22,535 bases of DNA from a virus. Shown here piece by piece: positions 3,131 to 9,128 of this stretch. The translations under genes and the position numbers were made by a program. Numbering within the stretch: the first letter of the stretch is position 1; every line of letters starts with the position of its first letter. Where the stretch lies: positions 1 through 22,535 of the IMG/VR virus record IMGVR_UViG_3300025120_000616. One strand, 5' to 3'. The notes below the pieces were generated by a model. It ran no database searches. It was not told the DNA's origin and saw only the letters and a program-made list of their open reading frames with translations.

Positions 3131-3955
3131 ATGGCAGTAACGAACGGATGGGGACAAGGCGCAAAAGACAATACTATAGAATGGGGTCAAGGTGCTTCAG
3201 ACAATACAATAAGTTGGGGTAAATCACAAACAGTAAGCGCAGCAGGTGACACAAATATTACAGGAAGCGGTGGTACACCTTCTTTTCAAAATTTACATTC
3301 CTATGATTTTGATGGCGTTGATGATACATTTGCAATACAAAGTGCAAGTGCTTACGCATTTACGGGCGACTTTACTATAATGGCTTGGGTGAAAGTTGAC
3401 GCAATAGGTAACAATCATTACATCATAGACACAAGCACAAGTGCAAGTTTTGGTAATGGCTATTCTTTTCGCGTTCGAACAAATGGTAAAATTAGATTTT
3501 GGAGTTACAACGCAGGTTCAACAGGTTTAAATAGCGCAACTGCATTAAGTGCAGGTTCTTGGTATCACATTGCTTGTGTTCATACATCTACGCAAAACAA
3601 AATTTACATAAACGGAAGTTTAGACGCTACACTAAATTGGAGTAGTGGACATTCTACAAGCAACACGACAAATTTAAAAATTGCAAGTAGTAACGTTTTA
3701 AGTGGATTCACAAACGGACACATTGACGAAGTCGCTTTTTTTAATAATGACCAAAGCGCAAACATCAGTGCAATTGGTTCTACAATACCTACGGACTTAT
3801 CAAGTTATTCTCCTTTGGGATGGTTTAGAATGGGTGACAATTCTCCAGTATGGAATGGTTCTACTTGGACTATGACAAGCGTAGGAAGCCAAACCAATAC
3901 TGCTATAAGTGCAAATATGTTAGAAGCTTCAAGAACAACAGACGTACCAACATAA
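3131..3955 (+). CDS. LamG/concanavalin-like lectin surface protein
   Basis: A 274-residue virion surface protein. Residues 7-29 hold two copies of an 11-residue repeat, WGQGAxDNTIx, plus the beginning of a third. From about residue 55 a LamG / concanavalin A-like jelly roll follows: SYDFDGVDDTFAIQ, FTIMAWVKVD, SWYHIACVH, KIYINGSLDATL, and HIDEVAFFN with the closing WFRMGDN. These are the hallmark strands of the LamG_3 family, which binds sugars. Binding of host surface glycans by the phage particle is therefore likely. The chain has no signal peptide, as expected for a virion part. Which particle structure carries it is not shown. Confidence 0.75.
   Translation: MAVTNGWGQGAKDNTIEWGQGASDNTISWGKSQTVSAAGDTNITGSGGTPSFQNLHSYDFDGVDDTFAIQSASAYAFTGDFTIMAWVKVDAIGNNHYIIDTSTSASFGNGYSFRVRTNGKIRFWSYNAGSTGLNSATALSAGSWYHIACVHTSTQNKIYINGSLDATLNWSSGHSTSNTTNLKIASSNVLSGFTNGHIDEVAFFNNDQSANISAIGSTIPTDLSSYSPLGWFRMGDNSPVWNGSTWTMTSVGSQTNTAISANMLEASRTTDVPT
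3149..3214 (+). repeat. 33-base tandem repeat, two units plus a partial third
   Basis: Units at 3149-3181 and 3182-3214 encode WGQGAKDNTIE and WGQGASDNTIS; a third unit begins at 3215 with WGKS. The copies differ at synonymous and a few nonsynonymous sites, so the repeat is old or held at protein level. It forms the N-terminal arm of the LamG protein and may be an attachment or oligomerisation stalk. Confidence 0.8.
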
Positions 3956-5382: not shown

Positions 5383-5767
5383 TCTTATCTTCGTTCTAAC
5401 GCTATTTAGTTGTTCTGCTAAGTATCACTATAGGAAAGCATTAAAGAAAGGCTTAGAAGTGATTAAAACGCAAGACACAATTAGAATTACAACTTTAGAT
5501 TCAATTCCGATAATTCATCACGACACAATTGTATACGAACATTTCTATTCTAGTAAAGACACCGTAATAATTTACGACAATATTTATGTTCCCAAGACAA
5601 GGTTAGAAACACGGATAGAATATAAAATAATAAGAGATACAATACGCCAAACTAAAGTAATAGAAAAGGCAAAAGCAAAAGCAAGTAAACAACCTAACTA
5701 CTTGCTATGGATCTTTCTTATTGTTCTGGTTTTGGCAGGTTCACAAATACTTAAAAAATTCCTATGA
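5369..5767 (+). CDS. Predicted unimolecular spanin (u-spanin)
   Basis: I start this 132-residue protein at ATG 5369; the open frame further upstream lies within the amidase gene. The N-terminus MRIYSLIFVLTLFSC is a lipoprotein signal with the lipobox LFSC (lipidated Cys15, followed by Ser). The C-terminus has a membrane helix at about residues 111-127 (YLLWIFLIVLVLAGSQIL) with basic KK after it. Between them lies a roughly 90-residue periplasmic linker, rich in beta pattern (DTIRITTLDSIPII, DTVIIYDNIYV) and ending in a basic helix. A lipidated outer-membrane end plus an inner-membrane C-terminal helix in one chain is the u-spanin plan, which fuses the two membranes in the last step of lysis. 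The place right after the endolysin agrees. Function is predicted from topology and context only. Confidence 0.7.
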   Translation: MRIYSLIFVLTLFSCSAKYHYRKALKKGLEVIKTQDTIRITTLDSIPIIHHDTIVYEHFYSSKDTVIIYDNIYVPKTRLETRIEYKIIRDTIRQTKVIEKAKAKASKQPNYLLWIFLIVLVLAGSQILKKFL

Positions 5768-8050: not shown

Positions 8051-8109
8051 AACTAATCGAACATATTTACTGCACATTAATAACTTGGATATATGGTAGA
8101 CTTAATTAA
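8047..8109 (+). CDS. Possible 20-residue coupling peptide
   Basis: ATG 8047 overlaps the previous stop (ATGA) and reads MKLIEHIYCTLITWIYGRLN before TAA 8107-8109. It overlaps the start of the DnaA-like gene by 17 bases. It may serve only to carry ribosomes across the 42-base gap. Weakly supported. Confidence 0.25.
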   Translation: MKLIEHIYCTLITWIYGRLN

Positions 8110-8455
8110 AAAAATAATACAGAAAGACGAACTAGATAAAAAATGCCGAAAAGTAACAACTGTAAACAAAAGAATATTTCTTTTTAATGCATTAAGAAAT
8201 CGTGGCTTAACACTTTATCAGATCGCAGAAATGTTTAAAATGAATCATTCAACTATTATACACGGCATAAAAAGGTATAATGAATTTACTGCTGCGCTAG
8301 ATGTTTCATTAAAATTAGACACGGAAGCATACAGGCAAATCTTAGAAAATGCGCCACAACAAAAATATAGTTTAGAAAAAGATATTTTAGAAGCGGAAAC
8401 AATGCAAGAATTAAGAACAATTAAAAGAAGACTTTATAACGATTTATACGAATAA
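8093..8455 (+). CDS. DnaA domain IV-like HTH protein
   Basis: A 120-residue DNA-binding protein. Residues 28-62 hold a helix-turn-helix ending in NHSTIIHGIKRY, close to the DnaA signature (H-[ST]-T-[VI]-x-H) of the C-terminal domain that binds DnaA boxes; RGLTLYQIAEMFKM forms the helices before it. There is no AAA+ domain, so it cannot be a full DnaA. The remainder is charged helix (KYSLEKDILEAETMQELRTI). It lies directly before the replication initiator-like and helicase genes, so origin recognition, interference with host DnaA, or early transcription control are all possible. Confidence 0.7.
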   Translation: MVDLIKKIIQKDELDKKCRKVTTVNKRIFLFNALRNRGLTLYQIAEMFKMNHSTIIHGIKRYNEFTAALDVSLKLDTEAYRQILENAPQQKYSLEKDILEAETMQELRTIKRRLYNDLYE

Positions 8456-8459
8456 TTTT

Positions 8460-8467
8460 TATATTTG
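8460..8467 (+). promoter_or_regulatory. Promoter -7 element before the replication leader
   Basis: TATATTTG matches TAnnTTTG and is identical to the boxes at 6849 and 12083. It lies just after the stop of the DnaA-like gene. A -33 element is less clear because it would fall in the end of that gene. Transcription would start at about 8471-8475, exactly where the structured leader begins. Confidence 0.6.
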
Positions 8468-8496
8468 CGAAGTTGTTGGGGCAATCAAAATTTTTC

Positions 8497-8538
8497 ATGT
8501 GTTACGTTAGTAAGAGACCCCAACCTCCGAAAGCGTAG
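8497..8538 (+). CDS. Possible 13-residue leader peptide MCYVSKRPQPPKA
   Basis: ATG 8497 is the first codon of the 5' arm of the terminator stem, and the TAG at 8536-8538 lies in its 3' arm. A ribosome on this frame would cover both A' and B and so block terminator and pseudoknot. The proline-rich end (RPQPP) could slow translation. Weak: any short AT-rich spacer may carry such a frame. Confidence 0.25.
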   Translation: MCYVSKRPQPPKA

Positions 8539-8550
8539 CACATTTTTTTT
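8497..8550 (+). terminator. Intrinsic terminator within the replication leader
   Basis: A 10-12 bp stem (8497-8508 with 8532-8543) is followed by T8 (8543-8550). The loop is long (about 23-27 bases), which fits a regulated rather than a simple terminator. The next gene starts at 8562 with no promoter in between, so read-through would be needed to express it. Confidence 0.6.
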
Positions 8551-8561
8551 ATCAATAAATT

Positions 8562-9128
8562 ATGGCAGAAAACAAGAAAGGCTTTTTACTTTATTGTGAT
8601 TTAATACATACGGTGGAAAAGTTAGACGATGAACAAGCAGGAAAGCTATTTAAACACGTTTTAGAGTACGTTAACGACTTAAATCCTATTACTGAAGACT
8701 TGCTTACACAGGTTTGCTTTGAACCAATTAAACAAAGTTTAAAGCGAGATTTGAAGAAATGGGAGAAACAACACGAACAACGAATAGCAGCAGGAAAGAA
8801 AAGCGCACAGGTTCGTAAACAGAATTCAACGCTCGTTAACGCTCGTTCAGTTTCGTCTACTGTAAGTGGTAGTGTAAGTGTAAGTGTAAAAGAGAAAGAT
8901 ATATATAGGAGCTTCGCTCATTTGTCTATGTCTTTAACAGAATTTAACAAGTTAGAATTAGAATACACTAAACAACAAATAGACGAGGTAATAGATTCAA
9001 TTCAGAACTTTGCAAATAACAAGAAATACAAATCATTATATTTGACTGCAAAGAATTGGCTTAAGAAACTGCCTAAAGAAGAAGAAGATAAATTAACAAC
9101 AAAAGCAAAAAGGTTAGGATATGCTTAA
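8562..9128 (+). CDS. Replication initiator/helicase-loader-like protein (DUF6291-type N-terminus)
   Basis: A 188-residue two-part protein. Residues 1-75 (KKGFLLYCDLIHTVEKLDDE, KLFKHVLEYVNDLNP, FEPIKQSLKRDLKKWE) resemble the DUF6291 domain found before helicase genes in Bacteroidota phages. A low-complexity Ser/Val linker follows at about 90-110 (VSGSVSVSVK). The C-terminal helical domain contains SLTEFNKLELEYTKQQIDEV and KYKSLYLTAKNWLKKL, similar in layout to the C-terminal part of phage replication and helicase-loader proteins. Its place right before a helicase gene (8-base overlap) supports a role in replication start. The repeats in the linker DNA could mark the origin. Confidence 0.65.
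   Translation: MAENKKGFLLYCDLIHTVEKLDDEQAGKLFKHVLEYVNDLNPITEDLLTQVCFEPIKQSLKRDLKKWEKQHEQRIAAGKKSAQVRKQNSTLVNARSVSSTVSGSVSVSVKEKDIYRSFAHLSMSLTEFNKLELEYTKQQIDEVIDSIQNFANNKKYKSLYLTAKNWLKKLPKEEEDKLTTKAKRLGYA
8828..8888 (+). repeat. Short tandem repeats inside the initiator-like gene
   Basis: AACGCTCGTT occurs twice back to back (8828-8837, 8838-8847). Further on, AGTGTA occurs three times (8871-8888) after an imperfect copy. They encode the Ser/Val-rich linker. In lambda-type phages the origin iterons lie inside the initiator gene between its two domains, the same position as here; that comparison is an inference. Confidence 0.5.

Follow-up and report, generated by a model that had tools for sequence, protein, structure and literature searches.

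A Covarying, Pseudoknotted Leader RNA With a Presumed Terminator Ahead of the Replication Genes of a Bacteroidetes Phage

Introduction

A 102-nt segment lies between a DnaA-like gene and a replication-protein-like gene in the genome of a Bacteroidetes phage, and the question raised by this locus is whether it encodes a structured RNA and what such an RNA would do there. The window, i.e., the whole stretch of DNA that was analyzed (22,535 nt, the IMG/VR record IMGVR_UViG_3300025120_000616), also carries portal, terminase, ERF and replication genes. A first-pass annotation of the sequence had placed in this segment a promoter box, a 7-pair helix GTTGGGG/CCCCAAC interleaved with a 10-pair stem including one G-U pair, a T8 run, and a gap of 11 nt to the ATG at 8562 in which a second promoter box was absent. 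All of these elements are present as placed. Little is known of how Bacteroidetes phages regulate their genes, and the class of RNAs to which this element belongs is missing from Rfam, yet common in viral contigs (at least 120 for one subfamily pattern). It places a defined, covarying structure in front of replication and early operons and, since it is present in isolated phages with cultured hosts, it makes control of early gene expression directly testable. The phage seems to produce a tightly folded RNA some 75 bases long, with a likely stop signal at its end, before the replication genes.

Layout of the Leader

The locus comprises the following features.

8093..8455, + strand: upstream gene encoding a DnaA domain IV-like HTH (PF08299, E = 8e-6, 26.2 bits, below the Pfam cut-off of 31.5)
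8460..8467, + strand: promoter -7 box TATATTTG, which by its sequence fits the Bacteroidetes consensus TAnnTTTG
8471..8550, + strand: predicted leader RNA (covariance model match 8471-8550), with a presumed start at about 8471-8475 and a presumed 3' end in the T run
8475..8481, + strand: pseudoknot 5' arm GTTGGGG, covarying with 8518-8524 (both bases vary in 4 of 7 pairs; pairing kept in 96% of cells)
8482..8496, + strand: A/T-rich linker, whose initial CAATC is invariant in the 32-sequence alignment
8497..8506, + strand: 5' arm of P2, the terminator stem, ATGTGTTACG (both bases vary in 6 of 10 pairs)
8507..8512, + strand: internal loop, 5' side, TTAGTA; AGTA is invariant in the 32 sequences and would be the AGUA half of a bulged-G-like motif
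8513..8516, + strand: P3 5' arm AGAG, with GAG paired and A opposite C (both bases vary in all 4 P3 columns among relatives)
8518..8524, + strand: pseudoknot 3' arm CCCCAAC, in the P3 apical loop, covarying with 8475-8481
8525..8528, + strand: P3 3' arm CTCC, covarying
8529..8533, + strand: internal loop, 3' side, GAAAG, invariant in the 32 sequences
8534..8543, + strand: P2 3' arm CGTAGCACAT, covarying; 10 pairs with ATGTGTTACG, one of them G-U
8543..8550, + strand: U tract T8, presumed intrinsic terminator, the first T also serving as the final paired base of P2
8562..9128, + strand: DUF6291 gene (replication-protein-like), the first after the RNA (Pfam PF19808, E = 1.3e-23; PHROG replisome organizer/primosomal matches)

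The P3 helix and the AGUA/GAAAG internal loop had been missed by the first-pass annotation. P3 is formed of 3 bp plus an A.C opposition and holds the pseudoknot 3' arm in its loop, while the internal loop resembles, by its sequence signature, a bulged-G (loop E / sarcin-ricin) module. With its 10 bp running straight into T8, P2 has the form of an intrinsic terminator, i.e., a stable stem with a U tract at its 3' end, and is predicted to act as one. Further downstream, within the DUF6291 gene (window 8830-8889), short direct repeats CGCTCGTTAA/CGCTCGTTCA and GTAAGTG units encode a low-complexity linker; these repeats are possibly an origin region.

A fold descriptor (8 bp or more in the stem, T5, and at least 7 pairs between the loop and upstream sequence) found no match when the 102-nt segment was dinucleotide-shuffled 5,000 times, nor in 40 shuffled whole windows searched on both strands; the real window contained exactly one. 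When the pseudoknot was left out, the minimum free energy had a z-score of -2.2. The predicted energies were -13 to -16 kcal/mol for the terminator hairpin, with about -11 kcal/mol more for the pseudoknot duplex.

Relatives and Covariation

A search with the DUF6291 protein gave 80 viral loci, most of which carry the same RNA immediately 5' of the start codon (locus numbers, here and below, are inflated by near-identical contigs), and a DNA pattern search enlarged the window's family to 58 distinct sequences. The DnaA-like protein retrieved only 3 loci; the exact pattern of the 3' part of the window RNA had no match in viral contigs, and a nucleotide search of the window RNA in phage records gave chance-level matches only. 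When the 700 nt before DUF6291 genes were considered at 92 mostly divergent loci, such a fold was present in 29, vs. none of 460 shuffled segments.

Covariation, which the first-pass annotation had proposed as a check, was scored on an alignment of 32 distinct relatives and bore out the fold. Cells of the three helices were paired in 93.9% of cases, vs. 35–49% with slid partners, and both sides changed in 14 of 21 pairs (pseudoknot 4/7, P2 6/10, P3 4/4). None of 500 shuffles reached the covariation score; this shuffle control ignores relatedness, whereas the slid control does not. One position of P3 alone showed five standard pair types, and the pseudoknot arms changed together (GGTAGGA/TCCTACC, GGTCGGA/TCCGACC, GCTGGGA/TCCCAGC, GGCGGGA/TCCCGCC, TTGGGG/CCCCAA). 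Since all three helices covary across 32 distinct relatives, the window RNA is a real RNA, and since G.U cells outnumber A.C cells on the + strand (49 vs. 19 in the window's family; 31 vs. 2 in subfamily II, described below), it lies on this strand. The covarying helices form one stack, with no junction. A P1 hairpin GUUG/CAAU was also considered in the window's subfamily and was rejected, as 10 of 32 sequences break one pair and no covariation was found. With this covariation and the negative Rfam scans, the view that the replication operon is headed by a pseudoknotted, terminator-ended RNA of no known family is strongly supported.

A long T run follows the stem in nearly all relatives of the window's family, and is lost in two of them, L099 (IMGVR_UViG_3300030380_004383) and L114 (3300030103_003195). 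Both keep the promoter, the pseudoknot, P3 (GGGG/CCCC) and the internal loop. In L114, GCGCGCAAATATTAAGCTT precedes the ATG. The two are natural variants without terminator. Because these two relatives keep fold and promoter without the T run, and because a few members of subfamily II have weak T runs of only T3-T4, the fold may do more than terminate transcription, or the mechanism may vary.

The Wider Class

The search was widened with a covariance model, then with a structural descriptor that gave no match on either strand of 2 Mb of Markov sequence. The architecture was found in Olleya phage Harreka_1 (30092-30169), two genes 5' of the DUF6291 replication gene and directly before the first of those two, in Flavobacterium phage 11b (33643-33718) before gp62-gp63, and in the contigs L198, L225, L229, L234, L250, and L256. 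A related arrangement with another sequence was present in Flavobacterium phages tooticki9-1 and filifjonk9-1, an elemoA phage, and Cellulophaga phages phi13:2 and phi19:3. The leader before DUF6291 in phi13:2 (L178, 1887-1990) has a promoter TACATTTG, a pairing CTCTCACA/TGTGAGAG and a terminator stem ACCGCTAAA/TTTAGCGGT; its layout is the same, with an unrelated sequence and without the AGUA loop. Also, interleaved arms outside the described subfamilies were observed upstream of DUF6291 in L071-L073 (GGGG/CCCC with CGTGTTT/AAACACG) and in L074 (AGTGCAG/CTGCACT).

The second subfamily, subfamily II, is very common, with at least 120 contigs by pattern, and about 76 of the 80 examined were real. 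At its 5' end it has an extra hairpin, P1; the pairing arm forms the loop of P1 and therefore makes a kissing-loop contact. Paired cells amounted to 96.2%, vs. 28–47% with slid partners, and both sides changed in 6/6 pairs of P1, 7/10 of P2, 3/4 of P3, and 3/8 of the kissing helix, the rest of which is invariant, this invariant core being partly a product of the search pattern. The internal loop of subfamily II is AAUGAA/GGAUU. L252 and L267 carry GAA and AGUA on exchanged strands. One contig, L303, carries two RNAs with different pairing sequences (~3834-3930 and 5560-5670), one of the AGUA type, preceding the gene of a DUF4326 protein, and one of subfamily II, preceding DUF6291. The subfamilies share one architecture, a kissing loop or pseudoknot on a predicted terminator-ended stem, and may or may not share descent.

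Covariance models of both subfamilies gave no match in 395 Bacteroidota genomes, in scans run without a positive control genome; DUF6291 was found in 4 of the same 395. Given this difference between none and 4 of 395, the element may belong mainly to phages that seldom exist as prophages.

Promoter and Gene Context

The TAnnTTTG box was found in 100 of 119 distinct upstream segments, 98 of these having it 6–15 nt before the pairing arm, vs. 6.6% in shuffles. This motif is the -7 consensus published for Bacteroides and confirmed in Flavobacterium johnsoniae (PMC7366714). From the T run to the next ORF or ATG, the median distance was 16 nt, it was at most 40 nt in 106 of 114 cases, and a second promoter box occurred once in the gap. 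These short gaps may partly reflect the compactness of phage genomes.

The first genes vary: DUF6291, DUF6378, a winged-helix initiator-like protein, BT4734-like primase, SNF2-type helicases, NUMOD4-HNH endonucleases, DUF4326 and small unknowns. Where DUF6378 comes first, thymidylate synthase-like and MazG-like genes follow (both named from sequence). Genes of the NUMOD4-HNH type stand directly 3' of the RNA in L281, L304, L318, L323, L324 and similar contigs, which looks as though homing genes had inserted time and again immediately 3' of the putative terminator. The first-pass annotation had set the leader between DnaA-like and initiator-like genes. This setting holds in the window, but among the loci with enough flank (near-identical contigs counted), a DnaA-like gene lies within 1.5 kb upstream in no more than 69 of 130 for the window's family and 22 of 83 for subfamily II. 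It is not an invariant neighbor, and its link to the RNA is incidental.

Possible Function of the Leader

The reading that we prefer, to which we give about an even chance, is that a structured leader RNA gates transcription by means of a dedicated promoter, a compact terminator and partial read-through into the replication operon. It is based on three observations: the fold covaries in three helices, it has a fixed place behind the promoter, and the gap is short despite differing first genes. The promoter at 8460 would start an RNA near 8471-8475, which would fold into a compact terminator made of P2, the bulged-G-like internal loop and P3, the apical loop of P3 pairing to the 5' end of the RNA. 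Polymerase would mostly halt at the T run (8543-8550) and release a stable RNA of about 75 nt, and the fraction reading through would transcribe the replication operon, for which the gap holds no other promoter. Under this gating, the gap would be short and devoid of a second promoter because the leader itself ends in a terminator. Since relatives of the RNA head early genes in many other phages, it probably controls the amount of early or replication gene product.

The back-pairing would set the efficiency of termination. The pseudoknot is compatible with P2 and does not compete with it, and so is not by itself a switch; more likely, it strengthens P2. Read-through might be altered by an antitermination protein, by a pairing that competes with the terminator, of the kind suggested for subfamily II, or by the released RNA itself if it acts in trans like IsrK. 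The linker of subfamily II is complementary to the inner 5' arm of P2 (AAGG/CCTT, AAGA/TCTT, CGGA/TCCG, ACAGA/TCTGT), with a complementarity of 3.92 vs. 3.48 expected, a value reached by none of 2,000 linker swaps (relatedness uncorrected). This pairing, exclusive with the terminator, could be a competing antiterminator. The same proposal was rejected for the window's subfamily, where complementarity was below the swapped controls (a few linkers being mis-cut). As for the attenuator or riboswitch-like timer suggested by the first-pass annotation, the anatomy agrees with it (constant promoter, short gap, no second promoter), but the window's subfamily shows no antiterminator, no ligand is indicated, and nothing is specific to a timer.

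The same observations can be read in other ways. The RNA of about 75 nt could be the product itself, a stand-alone phage small RNA acting in trans on host or phage RNAs or proteins, with the next gene transcribed from upstream and near only through genome compactness. A promoter and terminator of its own are the usual anatomy of an intergenic small RNA (PMC7366714), the fold is kept with unrelated downstream genes and without the T run, and at least one contig (L303) has two such RNAs with different pairing sequences. However, the gap to the next ATG is short nearly everywhere and lacks a second promoter box, no conserved unpaired seed was seen beyond the loop motifs, and the pairing arms are occupied by the pseudoknot. 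We hold this alternative, which the first-pass annotation had raised as a free RNA of ~80 nt, to be less likely than gating, though the nearest rival to it. If most transcripts continued instead, the folded 5' end would guard the mRNA from decay or control translation of the first gene, and the T run would be a spacer or a weak terminator. Such a 5'-UTR element would fit with the presumed RNA start close to the pairing arm, which folds the 5' end away, with the missing T run of L099 and L114 and the T3-T4 of some subfamily II members, and with first genes that mostly begin at most 40 nt away. We find it unlikely, as nearly every relative retains a stem that runs straight into a long T run, which an intrinsic terminator would lead one to expect.

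Control of the terminator by a ligand-binding riboswitch would account for the combination of pseudoknot, invariant internal-loop bases and terminator, and a bulged-G-type internal loop is also present in glutamine riboswitches. Nevertheless, the downstream genes have no common metabolite pathway, no ligand is indicated and Rfam gave no match. Also, the subfamilies differ in their internal loop (AGUA/GAA, the same two strands exchanged, or AAUGAA/GGAUU), which argues against a conserved ligand pocket and better suits a structural spacer; we hold a riboswitch to be very unlikely. It is scarcely credible that the element is a chance repeat or acts as DNA (an origin or a protein-binding dyad): the replication genes adjoin, but no shuffle reproduces the fold, G.U exceeds A.C on the + strand, and promoter and T run are both oriented on this strand.

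These data describe what is, as predicted, a new class of structured leader RNAs of the terminator type, well supported as RNA and with a putative mechanism. A broader proposal, which we make tentatively and regard as doubtful, is that of an undescribed class of Bacteroidetes-phage RNAs with many subfamilies and one architecture with an exchangeable internal-loop module, serving generally to control early and replication operons; loop-loop pairing would set or sense termination and the released RNA would act in trans on the same operon. An exchangeable internal loop together with a loop-loop lock on a terminator would, if true, be an unusual terminator design.

Comparison With Known RNAs

The first-pass annotation had recognized no known RNA family, and Rfam 15 at the gathering cut-off agrees, with no match in the window and only a tRNA in 20 relatives. 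Permissive Rfam scans gave chance-level matches only, and searches of open-licence literature found no description of such RNAs.

The CI RNA of phage P4, a temperate satellite, is an immunity RNA processed from the replication-operon leader, where transcription ends prematurely and segments are complementary to one another. The window RNA would likewise be a short RNA from a replication-operon leader, with internally complementary segments and a predicted premature termination. However, no RNA of its type was found in the 395 Bacteroidota genomes scanned and no role in lysogeny is indicated. The antitoxin RNAs of type III toxin-antitoxin systems (ToxI) consist of tandem repeats that form successive pseudoknots, with a terminator and a ToxN-like gene nearby. 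The likeness lies in the pseudoknotted RNA, the terminator and a gene at short distance; this identity was rejected, as the window has a single unit without tandem repeats, and its downstream genes vary, with DUF6291 here and not a ToxN-type toxin.

Glutamine riboswitches have a long-range pairing beside a bulged-G-type loop. The glnA and Downstream-peptide classes (RF01739, RF01704) were found in marine sequences (PMC2864571). The window RNA has in common with them a long-range pairing and may share a bulged-G-type internal loop, of which it carries the sequence signature, but it gave no match at the gathering cut-off or at E ≤ 10, has no three-way junction, and differs in downstream genes and host phylum. 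The STAXI motif is a pseudoknot near genes of DNA-handling proteins, repeated two or three times (PMC2864571). The window also has a pseudoknot adjoining genes for DNA-handling proteins; STAXI was rejected, as there is one unit, not two or three tandem pseudoknots, and the Rfam scan was negative.

For IsrK of the Gifsy-1 prophage, part of the transcripts are reported to read through the small RNA terminator, and the short form to act in trans (PMC4825925). Sequence and host are different, the downstream genes of the window are replication or early genes, and a pseudoknotted terminator is not known for IsrK. Nevertheless, IsrK and orf45-anrP present the succession that is predicted here, of a phage promoter, a short RNA, an intrinsic terminator and partial read-through to downstream genes (PMC4825925). 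The predicted anatomy of the window RNA thus resembles that of IsrK, with a trans step that is putative here.
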